A stretch of DNA of 35,897 bases, taken from positions 1 through 35,897 of the IMG/VR virus record IMGVR_UViG_3300044678_001681; one strand, written 5' to 3'. The stretch is from a virus. Position 1 is the stretch's first letter. Every line of letters begins with the position of its first letter. The notes below the pieces were generated by a model. It saw nothing but the letters and a program-made list of their open reading frames with translations. It searched no databases and was not told the DNA's origin. Below are positions 2,677 through 35,897 of this stretch, piece after piece. A program made the translations under genes and the position numbers.

Positions 2677-3003
2677 ATGAACGGACGAATACTCACCTGC
2701 GTTTATTGCGGGCACGAATACCCACAGGACACGCCGGCAGCAGGAAGCCAGGTGCTGACGGAGCACATCAAGGTTTGCGAGCGGCACCCGATGCGGAAGG
2801 CCGAAGGCGACATTGCCCTGCTGCGCGGCGCGCTCGTTGGCCTGATCGGCACAGACGGCGAGGATGATCTGCGGCAGATGGAAGCGACGATGCGACTGTT
2901 GCCGGCACCGGACGCCGACAAGGCGGTTTCGATCAACGCGATTCATGCGCTGCTGGCGACCATGCCGCCCAACTTAAATTCTCCGACACCTGATGTCGGA
3001 TAA
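2677..3003 (+). CDS. Cassette C10 gene, zinc-finger-like 108-aa protein
   Basis: A small protein with CVYCGHEYP at residues 8-16 and a later HIKVCERHP segment (about 30-38), a likely C2HC-type zinc-binding pair. I recall similar small proteins from phage genomes, without known function. The rest is helical and Leu/Ala-rich. The start at 2677 has the leader ACGGAGAAATGAC. It is the last gene before intI. Its final residues (NSPTPDVG) are encoded by a GCCCAAC box and a perfect 7-bp palindrome that appears to belong to the intI promoter region, so the native C-terminus may have been altered when the array was joined to intI. Confidence 0.7.
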   Translation: MNGRILTCVYCGHEYPQDTPAAGSQVLTEHIKVCERHPMRKAEGDIALLRGALVGLIGTDGEDDLRQMEATMRLLPAPDADKAVSINAIHALLATMPPNLNSPTPDVG

Positions 3004-3019
3004 CTCCATCACGTTACCC
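2967..3019 (+). other. Atypical attC-like boundary between array and intI
   Basis: GCCCAAC at 2967-2973 looks like an R'' box and GTTACCC at 3013-3019 like a weak R' box. Between them is a perfect TCCGACA-N5-TGTCGGA palindrome (2982-3000) in place of the long imperfect arms of the other sites, with no extrahelical bases. It may be a decayed last attC, a secondary recombination site, or a chance pairing with the intI regulatory region. Confidence 0.35.
2974..3003 (+). promoter_or_regulatory. Possible intI promoter with a palindromic operator
   Basis: A weak sigma70-like pair, TTAAAT (2974-2979) and GATAAC (2998-3003), is spaced 18 nt. The perfect palindrome TCCGACA-N5-TGTCGGA (2982-3000) occupies the spacer and overlaps the -10, where a repressor would block RNA polymerase. 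It is not a LexA box (CTGT-N8-ACAG), the usual regulator of intI genes. TGTCGGA half sites also occur upstream of the CII-like gene at 30868-30905. Confidence 0.4.
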
Positions 3020-3033
3020 GGAGACCAGCGTCA

Positions 3034-4068
3034 ATGCTGACCATCACCCGCCCAAACGCGACACACGCTCCCGCGTTATCCGTCACCACGCCGGCTGCGC
3101 AGCCTCCCCGACTGCTTGACCGCATGCGCGCGGCGATCCGGGTGCGGCACTACAGCCTGGCGACCGAGCGCACCTATATCGGCTGGGTCAAGCGCTTCAT
3201 TTACTTTCACCAGAAGCGACACCCCGCCGACATGGGGGCGCCCGAAGTCGAAGCCTTCCTGTCCGCGCTCGCCACCGAACTGGACGTGTCGGCCAGCACT
3301 CAGAACCAGGCCAAGCACGCGATCCTGTTCCTCTACAAGCAAGTCCTCGGCGTCACCCTGCCCTGGCTCGACGGCATCACCAGCGCCAAGATCAACAAGC
3401 GCCTGCCTGTGGTGCTCACTGTCACCGAAACACAAGCCCTGCTGCGCCGCCTGCCGCACGACACCAACGGCCTGATCGTCCGCCTGCTCTACGGCACCGG
3501 AATGCGCATCAAGGAATGTCTGCGCCTACGGATCAAGGACGTCGACCTTGATCGCGGCGAGATCATCGTCCGCGAAGGCAAAGGCGGAAAGGACCGCATC
3601 ACCATGCTGCCGGCCGCGCTGGTGCCCGAACTCACCGAACACATCGCCGAACGCCGCCGCTGGCACGACATCGATCTGTCCAGCGGGCACGCTGATGTCG
3701 AACTGCCCGACGCCATCGAACGCAAATACCCCAAGGCCGGCGCGCAATGGGCGTGGCAGTACATCTTCGCCGCGCCGACCTACAGCACCGATCCGCGCAC
3801 CGGCGTCGTGCGCCGCCATCACTGGTGCGAGCGCAACATCCAGCGCGCCGTGCGCACCGCCACCCAGGCCGCCGGCATCAGCAAGCTGGCCCATCCGCAC
3901 ACCCTGCGCCATTGCTTCGCCACCCATTTGCTCGAAGCCGGCTACGACATCCGCACCGTGCAGGAACTGCTCGGTCACAGCGATGTGGCCACCACCATGA
4001 TCTACACCCACGTCCTCAACAAAGGCGGGCGCGGCGTTGTCAGCCCGCTCGATCGGGTGACCGCATGA
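3034..4068 (+). CDS. intI: Integron integrase IntI
   Basis: A 344-aa tyrosine recombinase of the IntI family. The N-terminal SAM-like domain contains [20 protein letters not shown] (about 36-55). Catalytic residues visible: R158 ([11 protein letters not shown]), K183/K186 region (EGKGGKDR), H289-T-L-R292-H, H315 (ELLGHSDV), nucleophile Y324 (TMIYTHVL). The diagnostic part is the extra IntI segment at about residues 205-245, with [20 protein letters not shown] and then [13 protein letters not shown], found in integron integrases and absent from phage or XerC/D recombinases. It catalyses attI x attC and attC x attC exchange. The start at 3034 has CGGAGA upstream. Unlike classical integrons, it reads in the same direction as the cassettes, which lie on its 5' side. 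The stop overlaps the next start (ATGA). Confidence 0.95.
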
Positions 4069-4578: not shown

Positions 4579-4932
4579 ATGCGCACGCTCAACCTCACCG
4601 AGGCCGCCGCCTTCCTCGGCCTCCACCCCAATACACTGCAGGCCCGCGCCAAGGCCGGCACTATTCCGGGGGCAAAGGTGGGCAAGGAATGGCGCTTTCT
4701 TGATCTTGACCTGGCCGACTACCTCCGCGCACAATACCCGGCCAACAAACCACTGGAGCGGGCATGCTCTACCAGCGCGGCAAGACGTGGCACATCGACA
4801 TTCAGCACTGCGGCCGCCGCGTTCGAGAAAGCACTCGGACTACCGATAAAAAGGCTGCCCAGTGCCATCACGACCAGCGCCGCGCCGAACTCTGGTCCAC
4901 ACCTCACGCTGGCGCGGCGAACACCTGGCTAA
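4579..4932 (+). CDS. Excisionase-like helix-turn-helix protein
   Basis: A 117-aa protein. Residues 1-55 form a MerR/Xis-type winged helix (LNLTEAAAFLGLHPNTLQAR, then GAKVGKEWRFLDLDLADYL), typical of the DNA-binding excisionase family. The C-terminal third is Ser/Thr/Ala-rich and contains a degenerate C-S-T-S-A followed by a Gly/Ser stretch that I recall from related phage HTH proteins. For that reason I keep the full reading frame although its last 169 nt overlap the integrase in another frame. It probably directs Int toward excision by bending attP DNA. Located immediately upstream of int, as expected for xis. Confidence 0.7.
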   Translation: MRTLNLTEAAAFLGLHPNTLQARAKAGTIPGAKVGKEWRFLDLDLADYLRAQYPANKPLERACSTSAARRGTSTFSTAAAAFEKALGLPIKRLPSAITTSAAPNSGPHLTLARRTPG

Positions 4933-5795
4933 ACGCCTGCGCCGCCTGGCTCACCGCCGGCGACCGATCCGCCTCCGACAAATACAGCCTGCGCGCCCTC
5001 AACGCGGTCTACGCCGATCGCCCGCTTGACGCCTGCACCGCCGAATCCTTTGCCGACGCGCTCGCCGGCAAGACCCCGGCCACCTTCAACCGCTACCGCG
5101 CCCTGATCGTCGCCATCGTCCGGCACGCCGGCAGCGTCATCAAGATTCCGACCCGCAAGGTAAAGAAAGGCCGCATTCGTTTCCTTACGCAAGACGAGTG
5201 GAAACGATTGTACGCGGCGCTACCCGACTACCTCAAGCCGATCGCCGCCTTCGCCATCGCCACCGGCCTGCGGCAGAAGAACATCACCAACCTGCGCTGG
5301 ACCGAAGTCGACACCGCCCGCGCGGTGTTGTGGATTCACCCCGATCAAGCCAAAGGCGGCAAGCCGATCGGCATCCCGTTGTCCGACGAGGCCGTGGCCA
5401 TCCTGCGCGGGCAGGATGGCAAGCACGACGACTGGGTGTTCCCTTACAAGGGGCGAGGAAGGAAGGAAGGCGGCCCCGTGGTCAAGATCAAAACCGCCTG
5501 GCAACTCGCCATGGAGCGCGCCGGGCTGGGGCACTTTGAGCGATGGAAGGATGCCGCCGGCACCGCGCACAAGAAATGGCACGGCGACTTCACCTTCCAC
5601 GGCCTGCGCCACACATGGGCCAGTTGGCACGTCATGGCCGGCACGCCGCTCGAAGTGTTGCAAAAGCTGGGAGGATGGGAAGACCCGCGCATGGTGCAGA
5701 ACTACGCGCACCTGGCACCCGAGTACCTGGCGGGCTTCGCCGGCAATGCCAAGCCGTGGCAGCCGGAAAAGAAGAAGGCCGCGAAGGCGGCCTGA
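4764..5795 (+). CDS. int: Phage tyrosine integrase
   Basis: A 343-aa site-specific recombinase. The N-terminal arm-binding region (MLYQRGKTWHIDIQHCGRR) is followed by a core-binding domain (about 45-125) and a catalytic domain with R170 (ATGLRQKN), H279-G-L-R282-H283, W305 in place of the second His, and nucleophile Y314 (VQNYAHL). It lacks the IntI-specific insert, so it is the phage's own integrase and distinct from IntI. It should integrate the genome by attP x attB exchange at the tRNA-Val gene whose 3' part lies 100 bp downstream. The N-terminus overlaps the excisionase-like frame by 169 nt. A strong hairpin terminator follows. Confidence 0.93.
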   Translation: MLYQRGKTWHIDIQHCGRRVRESTRTTDKKAAQCHHDQRRAELWSTPHAGAANTWLNACAAWLTAGDRSASDKYSLRALNAVYADRPLDACTAESFADALAGKTPATFNRYRALIVAIVRHAGSVIKIPTRKVKKGRIRFLTQDEWKRLYAALPDYLKPIAAFAIATGLRQKNITNLRWTEVDTARAVLWIHPDQAKGGKPIGIPLSDEAVAILRGQDGKHDDWVFPYKGRGRKEGGPVVKIKTAWQLAMERAGLGHFERWKDAAGTAHKKWHGDFTFHGLRHTWASWHVMAGTPLEVLQKLGGWEDPRMVQNYAHLAPEYLAGFAGNAKPWQPEKKKAAKAA

Positions 5796-5896: not shown

Positions 5897-5941
5897 TGGT
5901 AGGCGCGATTGGACTCGAACCAACGACCCCCACCATGTCAA
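5897..5941 (-). tRNA. 3' part of tRNA-Val(GAC), attP core (not a complete tRNA)
   Basis: Read on the minus strand, the sequence runs from the anticodon loop TTGACAT through GGTGGGGGTCG and the T-arm GGTTCGAGTCC to CGCGCCTACCA. This matches the 3' half of a bacterial tRNA-Val with anticodon GAC, CCA included. The D-arm half is absent: similarity stops at the loop, where CGAGG replaces the expected stem. It is therefore the attachment core that would restore the host tRNA gene on integration, not a functional tRNA gene. Confidence 0.85.
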
Positions 5942-5952
5942 CGAGGGGCCAT

Positions 5953-30919: not shown

Positions 30920-30954
30920 AAAAAAATAGGCTGTAGCCCTATGGACTACAGCCT
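30920..30954 (-). terminator. Rho-independent terminator after the Cro-like gene
   Basis: On the minus strand, AGGCTGTAG and CTACAGCCT form a perfect 9-bp stem with a 9-nt loop, followed by A and a run of six T residues. It would stop transcription from the Cro-like gene before the CII-like gene unless an antiterminator acts. Confidence 0.85.
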
Positions 30955-30961
30955 GAACTAC

Positions 30962-31168
30962 CTATGCCGCTTGTTTCTGCTCGATCCCGTTGAAGTAATC
31001 GGACAGCTTCTGGATCGAATGCACCGACGGCTCTTTGATCAGGCCCTGGGCGATCTTGGTCAGGGTGGAGAACGGCACGCCGGACTCGGCAGCCACCTTG
31101 CGCTGGGGCACGCGCCGTGAGCGCAATTGCGCCATCACGAAGTCATACATCGGTGTATTGGTATCCAT
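30962..31168 (-). CDS. Cro-like helix-turn-helix regulator (68 aa)
   Basis: A short DNA-binding protein with VPQRKVAAESGVPFSTLTKI (about 20-39) as the helix-turn-helix. It is divergent from the CI-like gene, with the shared operator between them, as in a Cro/CI switch. The ATG at 31168 falls 9 nt after the -10 of the leftward promoter, so the mRNA is nearly leaderless. A terminator follows. It may repress the CI-like promoter and favour lytic growth. Confidence 0.78.
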   Translation of the reverse strand: MDTNTPMYDFVMAQLRSRRVPQRKVAAESGVPFSTLTKIAQGLIKEPSVHSIQKLSDYFNGIEQKQAA

Positions 31169-31176
31169 GGACGGGC

Positions 31177-31205
31177 ACTCTAAACCCATTTATGGGTTTG
31201 TGCAA
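31177..31205 (-). promoter_or_regulatory. Leftward early promoter with repressor operator
   Basis: On the minus strand, TTGCAC (31205-31200) and TAGAGT (31182-31177) are spaced 17 nt. The palindrome AAACCCAT-TT-ATGGGTTT (31182-31199) fills the spacer, the standard position for a phage repressor operator. A rightward promoter for the CI-like gene (TTGTGC at 31198, TTTTAT at 31220) overlaps the operator edge. Confidence 0.75.
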
Positions 31206-31243: not shown

Positions 31244-31642
31244 ATGGACATTACCAAGACAATAGCCGCCAACCTCGGCGCCTGGATGGACACCACTCCG
31301 GCGCTCGACACCCTGAAGAAGGTAGCCGCCAAGTCGGGTGTCGGATTTGGTACGGTGCAGCGCGCCCGTAATGGGGACGGCAACACCACGATCCAGAATC
31401 TGACCGCCATCGCGCGCGCCTTCCGGCGCCGCCCGGAGGATTTGCTGCTGAATGTTGACTATTCCACCGATGCCAATGTGAAGCGACTGACCGCCTGCGA
31501 ACCCGAGCCGCAGGCGCCCCTGATCGCGGAACTGGTCGCCATAGCCGAGCGCATGAGCGAACGCGGCCAGGCGCAGTTGATCGAGCGGGCGGAAATGCTG
31601 GCGCAGAAATATCCGAAGGCCAAAGCAAACCGTTTCAGTTGA
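31244..31642 (+). CDS. CI-like repressor without peptidase domain
   Basis: A 132-aa protein with an N-terminal helix-turn-helix (LKKVAAKSGVGFGTVQRARN, then TIQNLTAIARAFRRRPEDLL, about 23-68). The helical C-terminus (LIAELVAIAERMSERGQAQL) is probably for oligomerisation. There is no S24 self-cleaving domain, so induction by RecA would need another route such as an antirepressor. It is divergent from the Cro-like gene and next to the AAACCCAT operator, which recurs at 32472. Proposed keeper of lysogeny. Confidence 0.82.
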   Translation: MDITKTIAANLGAWMDTTPALDTLKKVAAKSGVGFGTVQRARNGDGNTTIQNLTAIARAFRRRPEDLLLNVDYSTDANVKRLTACEPEPQAPLIAELVAIAERMSERGQAQLIERAEMLAQKYPKAKANRFS

Positions 31643-32435: not shown

Positions 32436-32463
32436 AGCCCGTCCAGACGGCGGGCTTTCTTTT
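32436..32463 (+). terminator. Terminator of the repressor-lipoprotein operon
   Basis: AGCCCG and CGGGCT (32436-32441, 32451-32456), with further pairing of GTC to GAC inside, followed by TTTCTTTT. A Rho-independent terminator that separates the repressor operon from the next promoter. Confidence 0.8.
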
Positions 32464-32471
32464 CGGCAAAT

Positions 32472-32516
32472 AAACCCATTTACGGGTTGACACAGCTACC
32501 CATTCATGGATAATAC
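32472..32516 (+). promoter_or_regulatory. Rightward early promoter with repressor operators
   Basis: TTGACA (32487-32492) and TAATAC (32511-32516), spacer 18, is the best sigma70-like promoter I found in the window. AAACCCATTTACGGGTT (32472-32488) overlaps the -35 and a second, weaker relative ACCCATTCATGGAT (32498-32511) lies in the spacer. Both resemble the switch operator at 31182. This promoter leads into five small genes and then the integron array. Confidence 0.8.
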
Positions 32517-32520
32517 GCCC

Positions 32521-32964
32521 ATGCCCACCCCAATCCCGCCCACCACCGCCGAGCTGCGCGCCGCGTTCAATCGCGCCGCATGGACGCAGGACACCGCCGC
32601 CCGGACCGATACCTGGGACCGCGACATCAGCCACCGGACCTACTGCCACATCGCCCAATACGAAGGCACCGATCGCTATTGCTGGCAGGCCGTCCATGGC
32701 GACTATCGACTGTCCGGCATCGAACCCGGCCGCGAAGCCGCCATGGCGCAAGCCGACGCCACCATGGCGCTGCCGCTGGACGAATTCAACGCGCAAGTAT
32801 CCGCCGCCATCAAAGAAACCATGGCGGACCTCGAACGCAAGCTGCTGAACATAGATCCCACAGCAGCCCTGCTGCCCGGCTACCACATCGGGTTTCAAGA
32901 CGGCATTGCCCACGCCCGCCGCCTCGTCGGCGAAGCCCTCGACCTCGGCGAAGTCAGCGCATGA
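32521..32964 (+). CDS. Unknown 147-aa early protein
   Basis: The first gene of the rightward operon. It contains PPTTAELRAAFNRAAWTQDT at the N-terminus, then a WDRDISHRTYCHIAQYEGTD region and a C-terminal helical part. I recognise no family. The ATG at 32521 is 5 nt from the -10 box, so translation would be leaderless; an ATG at 32506 overlaps the -10 and is excluded. A 44-bp stretch of its N-terminus is duplicated in the next gene. Confidence 0.7.
   Translation: MPTPIPPTTAELRAAFNRAAWTQDTAARTDTWDRDISHRTYCHIAQYEGTDRYCWQAVHGDYRLSGIEPGREAAMAQADATMALPLDEFNAQVSAAIKETMADLERKLLNIDPTAALLPGYHIGFQDGIAHARRLVGEALDLGEVSA
32535..32578 (+). repeat. 44-bp direct repeat, copy 1
   Basis: Identical to 32975-33018. 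Encodes the PPTTAELRAAFNRA segment at the N-terminus of two consecutive genes, indicating a recent partial gene duplication or recombination. Confidence 0.92.
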
Positions 32965-33149
32965 CCCCCATCGACCCGCCCACCACCGCCGAGCTGCGCG
33001 CCGCGTTCAATCGCGCCGGGCTGCTGCACCTGCGCGGCTGGACCTTCGCCCGCGCGATCGCCGCCCCGCTGGTTGCCTGGTCGCTGGAAAAGTCCGCGCT
33101 GGCGGCACGGCGAACCCACCACTACCCGGCGCAACCGCGCCTTATCTGA
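32961..33149 (+). CDS. Unknown 62-aa protein with duplicated N-terminus
   Basis: Its first 20 residues (TPIDPPTTAELRAAFNRAG) repeat the start of the previous gene; the remainder (RGWTFARAIAAPLVAWSLEK) is different and mildly hydrophobic. Overlaps the previous stop by 4 nt. May be a diverged paralogue truncated or refitted after the 44-bp exchange. Unknown role. Confidence 0.6.
   Translation: MTPIDPPTTAELRAAFNRAGLLHLRGWTFARAIAAPLVAWSLEKSALAARRTHHYPAQPRLI
32975..33018 (+). repeat. 44-bp direct repeat, copy 2
   Basis: Exact copy of 32535-32578. Confidence 0.92.
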
Positions 33150-33159
33150 AGGAGCAGAC

Positions 33160-33432
33160 GTGAACAAATACGCCATCCGCTTCATCCACAACGGCAAGAG
33201 CCGCACCTACATCGTGAACGACATCGGCAGCGTCGACGCCATCTGCACCGCGCTGGATCTGCTGGAATCCGATGTGCCTGACATCAAGAGCTGCATCGGT
33301 CTGGCCGTGATCGCCAAGGCGTGGCCCGAAGGCGCGCACCTTGCCAACGAAGGCGAAGGCCCGGTGATCGACACCACGCGCCAGCCGCTGCGGCTGGTGC
33401 CCGAACGCGACGCCGCGTTGGAGGCGGCATGA
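33160..33432 (+). CDS. Unknown 90-aa early protein
   Basis: GTG start at 33160, preceded by AAGGAGCAGAC. A mixed alpha/beta sequence (YAIRFIHNGKSRTYIVNDIG, then DAICTALDLLESDVPDIKSC) without known motif. Probably a small host-takeover or accessory protein, as is usual in early operons. Overlaps the next gene (ATGA). Confidence 0.7.
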   Translation: MNKYAIRFIHNGKSRTYIVNDIGSVDAICTALDLLESDVPDIKSCIGLAVIAKAWPEGAHLANEGEGPVIDTTRQPLRLVPERDAALEAA

Positions 33433-33713
33433 CGCGCGAGGAACTCACCTTCAACCTCCGGGCCCTGGGCGGCGCGCTGGCGCTGATCGCCCTGGCGCTG
33501 GGCGCGCAGGGCCTGCTCGACCGCATCGAGCGTGACACCGAAGACCGCATCGCCTATCGGAAGTGGGTCGCCGACGCCTGCATCCCGTCGCCTGGCGAAT
33601 CCGCCATCGCCATCCACGACGGCCAGCGGCTGCGCTGCACCATCTACAGCCAGCGCGGCTACGGCCTCGCCACTGAAGTCGTCAGCGCCGCCGTCATGGA
33701 AGTACCGCTGTGA
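33429..33713 (+). CDS. Membrane-anchored 94-aa protein
   Basis: One transmembrane segment (about 12-29, ALGGALALIALALGAQGL) followed by a charged part with two Cys (DACIPSPGES and LRCTIYS) that could be disulfide-bonded in the periplasm. Overlaps both neighbours by 4 nt. Unknown role. Confidence 0.7.
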   Translation: MTREELTFNLRALGGALALIALALGAQGLLDRIERDTEDRIAYRKWVADACIPSPGESAIAIHDGQRLRCTIYSQRGYGLATEVVSAAVMEVPL

Positions 33714-33994
33714 AAGCTGACGTCAAACCCCAGAGCAAGGCCGCCGGCGCAGGACCTCACGAATGGACGCCGCTCAATACCAAGCGCGCAGGCGTGGCAC
33801 TGCGCGCACCCGCACGAGCCAGCGGCCCCGCCGCACCCCTTTCGACGCCCAAGCCAGGCGCCAACGATATCGAGACAGCTACGCTCGGTAAGCCCCAGCG
33901 GGCGGTGGGCTCGTCAACACCCGCAGCAGGCGATCCCCTCGACCGTAGTGTTCGGCCACACTCGGCCGAGAAAGGACAAAGACATGAAGTTTGA
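33710..33994 (+). CDS. Low-complexity Ala/Pro-rich 94-aa reading frame
   Basis: Starts with GTG in the overlap GTGA and runs past the first cassette boundary into the start of the next gene. It is rich in Ala, Pro, Gly and Arg, with no predicted fold. It may be a real gene whose 3' end was altered by cassette insertion at about 33950, or only an open frame in GC-rich DNA. Confidence 0.4.
   Translation: MKADVKPQSKAAGAGPHEWTPLNTKRAGVALRAPARASGPAAPLSTPKPGANDIETATLGKPQRAVGSSTPAAGDPLDRSVRPHSAEKGQRHEV
33950..33956 (+). other. attI: Candidate attI core / left edge of array
   Basis: GTTCGGC at 33950-33956 equals the R' box of attC2 (34804-34810) and lies 28 nt before the first cassette gene. No paired attC arms are seen upstream, which fits attI, a simple site with one core box. 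Position is at the end of the array opposite to intI, as cassette polarity requires. Confidence 0.4.
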
Positions 33995-34409
33995 GATCAT
34001 CAACCCGAGCGACCCGTACACGATGACGGCCCCGGACCTCGAAGTGGCGGCGGTAGCGGTGTCGCTGCTCGGCGATGGCAAGTACCCGCTGAAAGGTGTT
34101 GGCGGTGATGCCGGCCAGGACGTGCCGCCCTTCTTGTTTGGCGGCCACGACGAATGGTTTGCCTCGAAATTCGGGATGAACTACGAGGCCACCGCAGAGC
34201 ATGTGCTGAACCACAGGGCGGGAGAGCTGGCCGAGACGTTGGACAGCGTGACCCTCGGGCGGGAGCAGCGTTCGTCGCTGAACGACATTGGCGGACTAGC
34301 TCGAATCCTGTCAACTGCGGTGCGGCGTCATGTGGGGCCGACGGTTGAGGTAACCCGGCTGGCGCAGGTTCATCGCGCCAGTCCGGTGAGCGAAGCGAAC
34401 GAAGGTTGA
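33984..34409 (+). CDS. Cassette C1 gene, unknown 141-aa protein
   Basis: MKFEIINPSDPYTMTAPDLE start, then a mixed fold with LFGGHDEWFASKFG and a helical C-terminus. I recall similar short phage proteins beginning FEIINPSDPYTM, function unknown. The ATG at 33984 has AGAAAGGA upstream; an earlier GTG start at 33948 would include the putative attI core. The C-terminus is encoded by attC1 (34348-34411), so the end of the protein may be a cassette by-product. First gene after the candidate attI. Confidence 0.7.
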   Translation: MKFEIINPSDPYTMTAPDLEVAAVAVSLLGDGKYPLKGVGGDAGQDVPPFLFGGHDEWFASKFGMNYEATAEHVLNHRAGELAETLDSVTLGREQRSSLNDIGGLARILSTAVRRHVGPTVEVTRLAQVHRASPVSEANEG

Positions 34410-34411
34410 CC
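34348..34411 (+). other. attC: attC1 recombination site
   Basis: R'' AGGTAAC (34348-34354) and R' GTTGACC (34405-34411). Arms CCGGCTGGCGC (34355-34365) and GCGCCAGTCCGG (34375-34386) pair fully with one extra T on the right arm, the expected extrahelical base. 64 bp. A cassette-type leader and gene follow. Confidence 0.78.
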
Positions 34412-34452: not shown

Positions 34453-34758
34453 ATGGCACACGACGCACACGATTGGGAACGGCAGCGCCTGGGCGGGGAA
34501 ACGAACGCACCACGGAGCATAACGGAGCCGCTGATTTCGCAGGCGACCGGAAAGAAGATTGGCTGCGTGCAACACGACTGCGCCAAGTGCGAAACCGACG
34601 CCGAGGAAAGACGGCTGCTGGCCGCGCTGCTGCGCGAGTGGTACGAAATGTTTGCACACTGCCGGCGCGAAGGAACGGAAGGCGCGAACCTGATTGACCG
34701 GACTGCGCTGATGCTGCAAATGACCGATACGCTCAAGACGGCCAACCGTTTGACATGA
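34453..34758 (+). CDS. Cassette C2 gene, unknown 101-aa protein
   Basis: Contains the Cys/His segment CVQHDCAKCETDAEERR (about 37-53), which might bind a metal, and a helical Leu-rich part (LLAALLREWYEMFAHCRREG). The leader is ACGGAGAAAGGGCGAACG before the ATG at 34453. Bounded by attC1 and attC2. Not recognised. Confidence 0.7.
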   Translation: MAHDAHDWERQRLGGETNAPRSITEPLISQATGKKIGCVQHDCAKCETDAEERRLLAALLREWYEMFAHCRREGTEGANLIDRTALMLQMTDTLKTANRLT

Positions 34759-34810
34759 GGGGCGACGCGCGGCTTATTGCGCGGCGTCCCTCTCGATGGA
34801 TGGGTTCGGC
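34740..34810 (+). other. attC: attC2 recombination site
   Basis: R'' GGCCAAC (34740-34746) to R' GTTCGGC (34804-34810), 71 bp. Arms GAGGGGCGACGCGC and GCGCGGCGTCCCTC pair with two mismatched positions around a GGCTTATT loop. It overlaps the end of C2 and is followed by a variant of the dispersed motif (34814-34831) and by a Shine-Dalgarno leader. Confidence 0.78.
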
Positions 34811-34846: not shown

Positions 34847-35056
34847 GTGACAACGATAGAAAAGCTGGTTGCGGCGGTACTCATTCCGATCTTCGCGTTC
34901 CTCGTGTACATGATGCTCGTGATGATGCCGGTGATGGCATACACCGAGGCCGAATGCCTGAGGAGCGGCTACCCGAAGGCGCACGTTACTGTAGGGCTGG
35001 AGCGCTACTGCTCGAATTTCGATGGCGCGGTAACTGTGCGGGTAACGAAACAGTGA
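34847..35056 (+). CDS. Cassette C3 gene, small membrane protein (69 aa)
   Basis: GTG start at 34847 behind AAGGAGA with ideal spacing; an upstream ATG in attC2 was rejected. One N-terminal transmembrane segment (about 5-28, LVAAVLIPIFAFLVYMMLVM) is followed by EAECLRSGYPKAHVTVGLER, then YCSNFDGAVTVRV. Two Cys in the probably periplasmic part may form a disulfide. I recall the C-terminal motif from short phage membrane proteins. Followed by attC3. Confidence 0.75.
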   Translation: MTTIEKLVAAVLIPIFAFLVYMMLVMMPVMAYTEAECLRSGYPKAHVTVGLERYCSNFDGAVTVRVTKQ

Positions 35057-35060
35057 TGAC

Positions 35061-35132
35061 GCCGGACGCAAAAAGTGAGCCGACGAGCGCGGCATTATCG
35101 CGCGATGTCGCGCCTGGAACGCAGGGTTAGAA
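35061..35132 (+). other. attC: attC3 recombination site
   Basis: R' GTTAGAA at 35126-35132 is clear. R'' is degenerate: GCCGGAC (35061-35067), or GGGTAAC further left at 35040. The inner stem pairs CGAC and GCGCG with CGCGC and GTCG, leaving unpaired G bases, around a GCATTAT loop. Moderate call. Confidence 0.65.
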
Positions 35133-35135
35133 CTC

Positions 35136-35429
35136 ATGGAGAAGCCTTACTACGGATGGGCGATCCGGTTGCCATACGAGTATGACGCAATGGCCGGGGT
35201 GCTGTTCTGGACATCCCCGCCGCCGCACTGTGCCGCGATTCGCACAGCGGTATTTGAAACGAGGCGTGAGGCGCGCGAGGCAAAGAAGCGGTGCCCGGCA
35301 GGTAGCAAGGTAGTGCATGTCAAGGTGACTATCTCCGAGACTGCGATGAGTTCTAACGCAAAAGCTGTGGGGCTGGACGCCGCAGGCGGACAGTCCCACA
35401 CGAGCGACGGGTTGTGCCCCGGCGATTGA
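35136..35429 (+). CDS. Cassette C4 gene, unknown 97-aa protein
   Basis: Starts only 4 nt after R' of attC3, so it lacks the leader of the other cassettes; GGTTAGAAC precedes the ATG at 35136. The N-terminal two thirds (YGWAIRLPYEYDAMAGVLFW, then REAREAKKRCPAGSKVVHVK) look like a small alpha/beta protein. The last 26 residues are encoded by attC4 and are probably not conserved. Not recognised. Confidence 0.65.
   Translation: MEKPYYGWAIRLPYEYDAMAGVLFWTSPPPHCAAIRTAVFETRREAREAKKRCPAGSKVVHVKVTISETAMSSNAKAVGLDAAGGQSHTSDGLCPGD
35351..35417 (+). other. attC: attC4 recombination site
   Basis: TTCTAAC (35351-35357) to GTTGTGC (35411-35417), 67 bp. The arms TGTGGGGCTG and CAGTCCCACA pair with one mismatch, and an inner CGCC-GCA-GGCG hairpin closes the stem. 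TTCTAAC is the exact complement of the attC3 R' box GTTAGAA. It lies inside the C4 reading frame. Confidence 0.8.
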
Positions 35430-35441
35430 ACGGAGAACGAA

Positions 35442-35882
35442 ATGCAGCAATGCGAGCGACTGCGAAAGCACAACCGCTGGAGGCGCGGCGACAAGCGCCT
35501 GAAGATGCCAGACCCGAAAGAACTCGGGGAACTGATCGACGGCGTGGCCGACCGGCTGGAAGTGCTGGAGCGCGAACACACGGAGTTTTTCGACCGCTGG
35601 CACGATGAGCGGCGGAAGCGAGAGAAGCTGGCGTACGACGTTGAGCGGTGTTATCGGATGCTGCTATCGGAGCCAGACACGAAGGGCGCACTTTTCAAGG
35701 CCGAAAACATCCTGCGCGAGGCGCTGGGCGACCAGAAAGTCGGCGCTGGCGGGACGGCACCCGAGGGGCACAACGTGCTAGCTGACCGGCCTGCCGCGCC
35801 TCTTGCGGCAGGTCCAGCGACCGAAGGGAGCGAGGTCGAGCGCCGGGTTGGGGGTCGCCGTCTCGCCGGCGCCGACTTTTGA
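35442..35882 (+). CDS. Cassette C5 gene, coiled-coil-like 146-aa protein
   Basis: The leader CGGAGAACGAA precedes the ATG at 35442. A basic N-terminus (RLRKHNRWRRGDKRLK) is followed by a long helical region, heptad-like (LGELIDGVADRLEVLEREHT, then RRKREKLAYDVERCYRMLLS), and a helix ending at about residue 97. The remaining 50 residues come from the dispersed motif (KVGAGGTA), attC5 and the inverted motif, with no stop until just after. The real functional protein is probably the first 100 residues. On the circle the frame ends at window position 112. Confidence 0.7.
   Translation: MQQCERLRKHNRWRRGDKRLKMPDPKELGELIDGVADRLEVLEREHTEFFDRWHDERRKREKLAYDVERCYRMLLSEPDTKGALFKAENILREALGDQKVGAGGTAPEGHNVLADRPAAPLAAGPATEGSEVERRVGGRRLAGADF
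35735..35760 (+). repeat. Dispersed motif copy before attC5 (inverted)
   Basis: AAAGTCGGCGCTGGCGGGAC (35737-35756), inverted relative to 35865-35880. The two copies bracket attC5. Encodes KVGAGGT in C5. Confidence 0.65.
35768..35853 (+). other. attC: attC5 recombination site at the contig junction
   Basis: R'' GCACAAC (35768-35774) to R' GTTGGGG (35847-35853; same as 77-83), 86 bp. The inner stem CCTGCCGC and GCGGCAGG is perfect around a GCCTCTT loop; outer pairing is looser. At the left end of the window the same site begins with t, so R'' there would end TAAC as in attC6 (GCATAAC). The site is longer than the others, with an extra GAAGGGAGCGAGGTCGAG segment. Confidence 0.7.
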
Positions 35883-35897
35883 AAACGGAAAGGATTG
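35772..35897. repeat. Right copy of the 126-bp terminal direct repeat
   Basis: Identical to 2-127. See the left copy for interpretation. Confidence 0.95.

Follow-up and report, generated by a model that had tools for sequence, protein, structure and literature searches.

An integron cassette array that probably forms the tail of a repressor-controlled early operon in a phage

The DNA analysed here in full, referred to as the window, comes from IMG/VR, where it is a virus record 35,897 bases long. Bases 2–127 are identical to bases 35772–35897, and this repeat was read as an assembly overlap of 126 bp between the contig ends, so that the map looks circular. Because of a single mismatch, at base 1, the record may be classed as linear. 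Since the contig ends overlap, the integron cassette array beginning near 33.9 kb crosses the join and ends at 2.97 kb, at attI and intI. The pairing of boxes persists across the join as well: GTTGGGG (35847) has its partner, CCCCAAC, at 377. The array placed at 33.9 kb in a preliminary description of the window is real; it does not terminate at the contig edge and continues through 0–2.97 kb. With 26.0–35.9 kb as the query, the phage collection yielded no nucleotide match.

The immunity region contains two divergent HTH genes. A Cro-like gene (30962–31171, minus strand; Pfam HTH_3) is the first gene of a lytic minus-strand operon, with a terminator-like site on the same strand at 30954–30928. 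The putative repressor, of 132 aa (31244–31642, plus strand), also matches HTH_3, as does its homologue in the relative L067 (=L023); it is 32% identical to the L023 counterpart. With Pfam this protein shows an HTH domain and no peptidase domain, and SOS induction of the RecA type should therefore not be taken for granted. The lysogeny-switch operator, AAACCCATTTATGGGTTT, lies between the divergent genes at 31182–31199. The repressor operon is followed by a terminator-like hairpin on the plus strand (32436–32456), which sets it apart from the early promoter immediately downstream; L067 and L045 have equivalent hairpins in this position.

The early promoter, TTGACA-16-GATAAT (32487–32514, plus strand), agrees with the consensus at 11 of 12 positions, and it is the only plus-strand promoter-like site in 29.0–35.9 kb as judged by −10/−35 rules that represent the sigma-70 consensus only. 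The host is uncultured. The TTGACA hexamer had been recognized previously; the 18-base spacer and TAATAC proposed with it are an alternative register, GATAAT with a 16-base spacer being the better one. Two operator copies cover this promoter, one overlapping the −35 hexamer (32472–32489) and a weaker, third copy, ACCCATTCATGG, overlapping the spacer and the −10 hexamer (32498–32509). When the window was searched for the 18-base pattern AAACCCAT-NN-ATGGGTTT, with up to three mismatches allowed, the only occurrences were 31182–31199 (perfect) and 32472–32489 (two mismatches). By chance, 0.03 matches would be expected, and none of 100 shuffled sequences contained two. The claim that the promoter is overlapped by two relatives of the operator at 31182 is thus borne out, by one match to the pattern and one partial copy. 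Because the promoter operators match the operator between the repressor and Cro-like genes, the phage repressor, presumably the 31244–31642 product, would be expected to bind them and to shut the operon in the prophage.

Five small early genes on the plus strand (32521–32964, 32961–33149, 33160–33432, 33429–33713 and 33710–33994) lead from the promoter to the array. They had been described as overlapping; the connection they make is as described, but one pair is separated by a 10-base gap. The gene at 33429 is 77% identical in L022–L024, and no relative of the gene at 33160 was found in the phage collection scan. The similarity of the window to its relatives ends at 33935. Shortly beyond this point, at the array edge nearest to the promoter, is an R′-like box, GTTCGGC (33950–33956, plus strand), which is possibly a decayed attC.

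The cassette genes are likewise on the plus strand, at 33984–34409, 34453–34758, 34847–35056, 35136–35429 and 35442–35882 and, past the join, at 130–372, 420–1184, 1271–1534, 1603–1863, 1869–2195, 2285–2581 and 2677–3003. The product of 420–1184 is PAPS-reductase-like (phrog_424) and that of 1603–1863 is Lar (Pfam), while cassettes of relatives encode Mom, Dam, an N6_N4 methylase and others. Judged by these matches, the cassettes of the phage family include anti-restriction genes (Lar, Mom and methyltransferases). Sites at 34740–34810, 35351–35417, 1179–1246, 1507–1576, 2183–2252 and 2583–2654 were identified as attC both by comparison of cassette edges and by an attC sequence model. The model also identified 35066–35132, 35768–35853 (the last part of which is the contig-end overlap) and, weakly, 34338–34411 (13.5 bits). 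A long attC at 1818–1940 was located by cassette edges, with a partial match to the model, and a degenerate one at 377–395 was recognized in the sequence by its R″ (CCCCAAC) and R′ (GTTATGC) boxes, the only parts present. RNAalifold gave no consensus structure for the MAFFT alignment of attC sites, so the model (R1) uses sequence only, and structure was judged by folding single sites. The array has both the R′/R″ pairing and the extrahelical bases of an integron; pairing was exact for 25 of 35 neighbours, as compared with 8% of random pairs. Many of the cassette genes take their stop codon from the following attC (..NA stop).

No plus-strand terminator with a T-run was seen between the early promoter and intI, the sole weak match in that interval (1193–1207) being an arm of an attC. 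Nor did the plus strand show a promoter-like site between 32515 and the end of intI, the array included; the first one after that is at 4706. The preliminary description had found no terminator between promoter and array and no visible promoters for the cassette genes. The present scans, using sigma-70 rules for promoters, agree with it on both points and extend the terminator-free interval as far as intI. Transcription from the early promoter would then be expected to read through the array. A point against such read-through is that the attC hairpins of the array may attenuate transcripts, since attC hairpins are capable of doing so (PMC8876359).

It could be argued that expression of the array takes place chiefly in the lysogen, to the benefit of the host, from cryptic promoters inside cassettes or through transcripts continuing from the repressor operon. 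Promoters within cassettes are known in some integrons, and the scan would miss promoters that are not of the sigma-70 type. Against this, the array is devoid of promoter-like sites, the repressor operon ends in a terminator-like hairpin ahead of the early promoter in the window, L067 and L045, and the recognizable cassettes (Lar, Mom and Dam) suit early infection. Expression chiefly in the lysogen is therefore considered unlikely, and expression from the early promoter is preferred.

The array ends at a putative attI. When the DNA preceding intI was aligned, AACTTAAATTCnnCGACA...TGTCG was found to be conserved in most viral loci, where it immediately precedes the start codon; to the left of a sharp AA|C edge the aligned loci have no similarity. 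In the window this element occupies 2973–3008 (CTTAAATTCnnCGACA...TGTCGG.TAACTC), with the crossover at 2972/2973 (GCCCAA|C). Adjoining intI, with that gene pointing away, it is in the canonical position of an attI. The window (2981–3003) and its relatives also have a conserved inverted repeat here, CCGACA...TGTCGG, which may bind IntI or regulate intI. Genes that read through the AA|C edge end within attI with a common tail, NLNSxTP(D/P)V(A/G) plus stop, in L013, L015, L018, L023 and the window (2971–3003). Placement of attI at 33.95 kb was considered and abandoned, as cassette edges, the alignment upstream of intI and cassettes shared between phages all put it at 2.97 kb. Position 33956 is indeed an edge of the array, the one nearest the early promoter, and not attI.

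The gene that follows attI, intI (3034–4068, plus strand), went unmentioned in the preliminary description. Its product matches the whole of the TIGR02249 profile (453 bits; cut-off 265) and the IntI4 structure 2a3v (E=4e-87), identifying it as an integron-type tyrosine recombinase, which is presumably active. The gene is on the same strand as the cassette genes and is the last in their run. A separate tyrosine recombinase, the phage integrase, is encoded at 4764–5795 (plus strand). After it, at 5898–5945, is a sequence resembling the 3′-end of a tRNA, which is probably attP.

In bacteria, the platform known as an integron has a single promoter (Pc), situated at attI. L023 and L024 have flanks that are more than 98.5% identical and differ by whole cassettes, the mobile unit on the gene strand being attC body, GTTnnnn, gene and nnnnAA. 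Cassettes common to unrelated phages have the same AA|C edges on the gene strand, and it follows that the attC body precedes the gene on that strand and moves with the gene behind it. One unit of the window (35358–35774) is also present in L015, at 99.3% identity over 430 bases; there it adjoins attI, and the L015 IntI is 69% identical. The pairs L023/L024, L018/L021 and L015/L016 differ at attI. Cassettes are thus exchanged or inserted at attI.

The attC sequence model, which was built on the strand opposite to the genes, gave 94 of 96 matches on the strand opposite to intI, in phage loci and chromosomal control loci alike. With sites folded on the intI strand, extrahelical bases in the phages numbered 74 in the right arm (mostly T and G) and 9 in the left; for the chromosomal controls the corresponding figures were 25 and 2. 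In the attC bottom strand the extrahelical bases are T and G on a single side (PMC3053210), so the intI strand is the bottom strand in both groups. Gene direction required some care, as calling by longest ORF produced false minus-strand genes in this G+C-rich DNA, and a codon model was used instead. Genes upstream of intI were mostly on the intI strand in 23 of the 26 loci with the attI motif; the exceptions are two chromosomal loci in which the motif is probably due to chance and one locus with no call. In the other genomic loci the upstream genes were on the intI strand in 7 of 44 and on the opposite strand in 35. Plus-strand Pfam and PHROG matches confirm the direction (Lar, 1603–1863; phrog_424, 420–1184; Mom, Dam and N6_N4 methylase in relatives). 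In two chromosomal loci, L101 and L102, genes called upstream of intI are mostly on the intI strand, which may reflect gene-caller error or the absence of an array.

As read from these sequences, the polarity of attC and attI relative to intI is canonical, and the cassette genes are on the attC bottom strand, facing attI rather than reading away from it and from Pc. The choice of the bottom strand normally orients a cassette for expression from Pc (PMC8946536). With genes inverted relative to both attI and attC, a canonical Pc could not express the cassettes. An arrangement of the Treponema denticola type, a reverse integron in which only intI is flipped, would resemble the window in having intI and the cassette genes on one strand. 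There, however, intI is inverted and transcribed toward attI, and the cassettes keep their canonical direction from attI (PMC3607928). In the window intI is transcribed away from attI and the cassette genes toward it, and attC polarity relative to intI is that of the chromosomal controls. A Treponema-type arrangement is for these reasons highly improbable.

Relatives of the window IntI are encoded by 43 viral contigs. In a tree that included 76 genomic loci, 27 viral rows and four genomic loci (L071, L072, L074 and L075) formed one clade of 31 loci (support 97/89), and its members also have a layout in common. L071, which lies next to a mutS-like gene in Aromatoleum toluolicum strain T, and L075, from an Azoarcus MAG, have early-type genes, array, attI, intI and phage integrase, followed by chromosomal genes. 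Both look like prophages by gene content, and the hosts of the lineage are, on that basis, probably Rhodocyclales. The best IntI match in the phage collection was below 60%.

The closest non-phage IntI proteins are chromosomal and betaproteobacterial. The integrons to which they belong have IntI proteins 55–65% identical, the same attC type and polarity, and attI 5′ of intI; in contrast, their cassette genes read away from attI, and they have no phage promoter–operator setting. That relationship could suggest a canonical integron captured from a bacterial host, expressed from Pc at attI, with the nearby phage promoter a coincidence. Known phage integrons, those of Shewanella phage M16-3 and of Vibrio anguillarum phages, likewise have intI and an attC array in a phage genome and have been described as captured host integrons (PMC9892861). 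M16-3 fits that description, but it differs from the window in that, according to the annotation, its cassette genes and intI diverge and intI is preceded by a LexA box; its IntI is only 45% identical. In the window, transcripts from Pc would be antisense to the cassette genes, which are directed toward attI; moreover, the phage IntI proteins form their own clade, and cassettes are shared between phages whose IntI proteins are 69% identical. Capture from a host is accordingly given very little credence. By its IntI, attI and attC sequences the locus is an integron, one that departs from the canonical gene direction and is not a captured bacterial integron.

The promoter–operator design recurs among the relatives. 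In L067 (=L023), L005, L045, L013 and L018/L021, the promoter heading the same-strand run has one operator copy near −35 and a second near −10, and a further copy is situated 0.8–1.8 kb upstream, beside HTH genes where these were identified. The operator sequences all differ among these phages and the window. Thus, in the window and for five further operator types or pairs, the operators found at an early promoter are those of the phage's own immunity region, as in a lambda-like early operon. L022 and L024 are 100% identical over 16.9 kb that include the array and intI, and differ in the immunity module and early promoter, the pattern expected of heteroimmune relatives whose early promoter is part of the immunity system. 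The automatic scan for a repeated operator found none in L015, L027, L028, L071, L074 and L075, and the match in L024 was weak. The earlier proposal that a repressor-controlled phage promoter replaces Pc is supported by the recurrent design and by the joint replacement of immunity module and promoter; what it lacked was the inversion of the cassette genes.

It is therefore proposed that the window represents a temperate phage of an integron-owning lineage, in which the early operon ends with attI and intI. Cassettes would enter at attI with canonical attC polarity, their genes lying on the attC bottom strand and directed toward attI and intI. Because the genes face attI and intI, the whole array, and probably intI as well, would be the tail of the phage early operon, which would start at the 32487 promoter, at the end of the array far from attI. 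Silenced by the repressor in the prophage, the operon would be released on infection or induction, and the array would supply exchangeable early genes, anti-restriction genes among them. That the array is the tail of a repressor-controlled early operon is regarded as likely, both as architecture and as its principal use. Expression on infection or induction would follow from that architecture.

The pL operon of lambda is a repressor-controlled early operon with accessory genes, including ral, which alleviates restriction, and with the phage integrase at its end. The window phage would be similar in these respects; unlike those of lambda, its accessory genes are integron cassettes with their own recombinase. 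It is somewhat more likely than not, though less assured than the operon itself, that a phage lineage domesticated an integron as a loader of exchangeable early genes. It would possess its own pool of cassettes with bottom-strand genes, useless to canonical integrons, added together with intI at the tail of the early operon, and anti-defence genes would be swapped and expressed only on infection or induction. In the open-access literature searched, no integron with all cassette genes facing attI was found, nor a phage-owned one, only captured cases. A phage-owned integron with inverted genes under the lysogeny switch would imply that cassette orientation is set by promoter location, that phages can readily swap anti-restriction genes, and that their cassette pool is separate from that of the host. 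It also makes testable the origin of gene orientation in cassettes and the timing of IntI action in the phage life cycle.

Several other viral loci deserve mention. In the phage-like L029 (9109–9663 and 10001–11026), IntI groups with chromosomal Gallionella/Thiobacillus types; the genes are inverted and one cassette is in common with the window (92% over 239 bases), a second origin or an integrase swap being possible on the basis of these sequences. More distant viral IntI loci (L031, L034, L036, L038 and L043) have upstream genes on the intI strand and a different sequence before intI. Finally, L151 (Virus Rctr41k), a 41-kb virus from an enrichment culture, has an IntI-like gene (45% identical) with all neighbouring genes on its strand.
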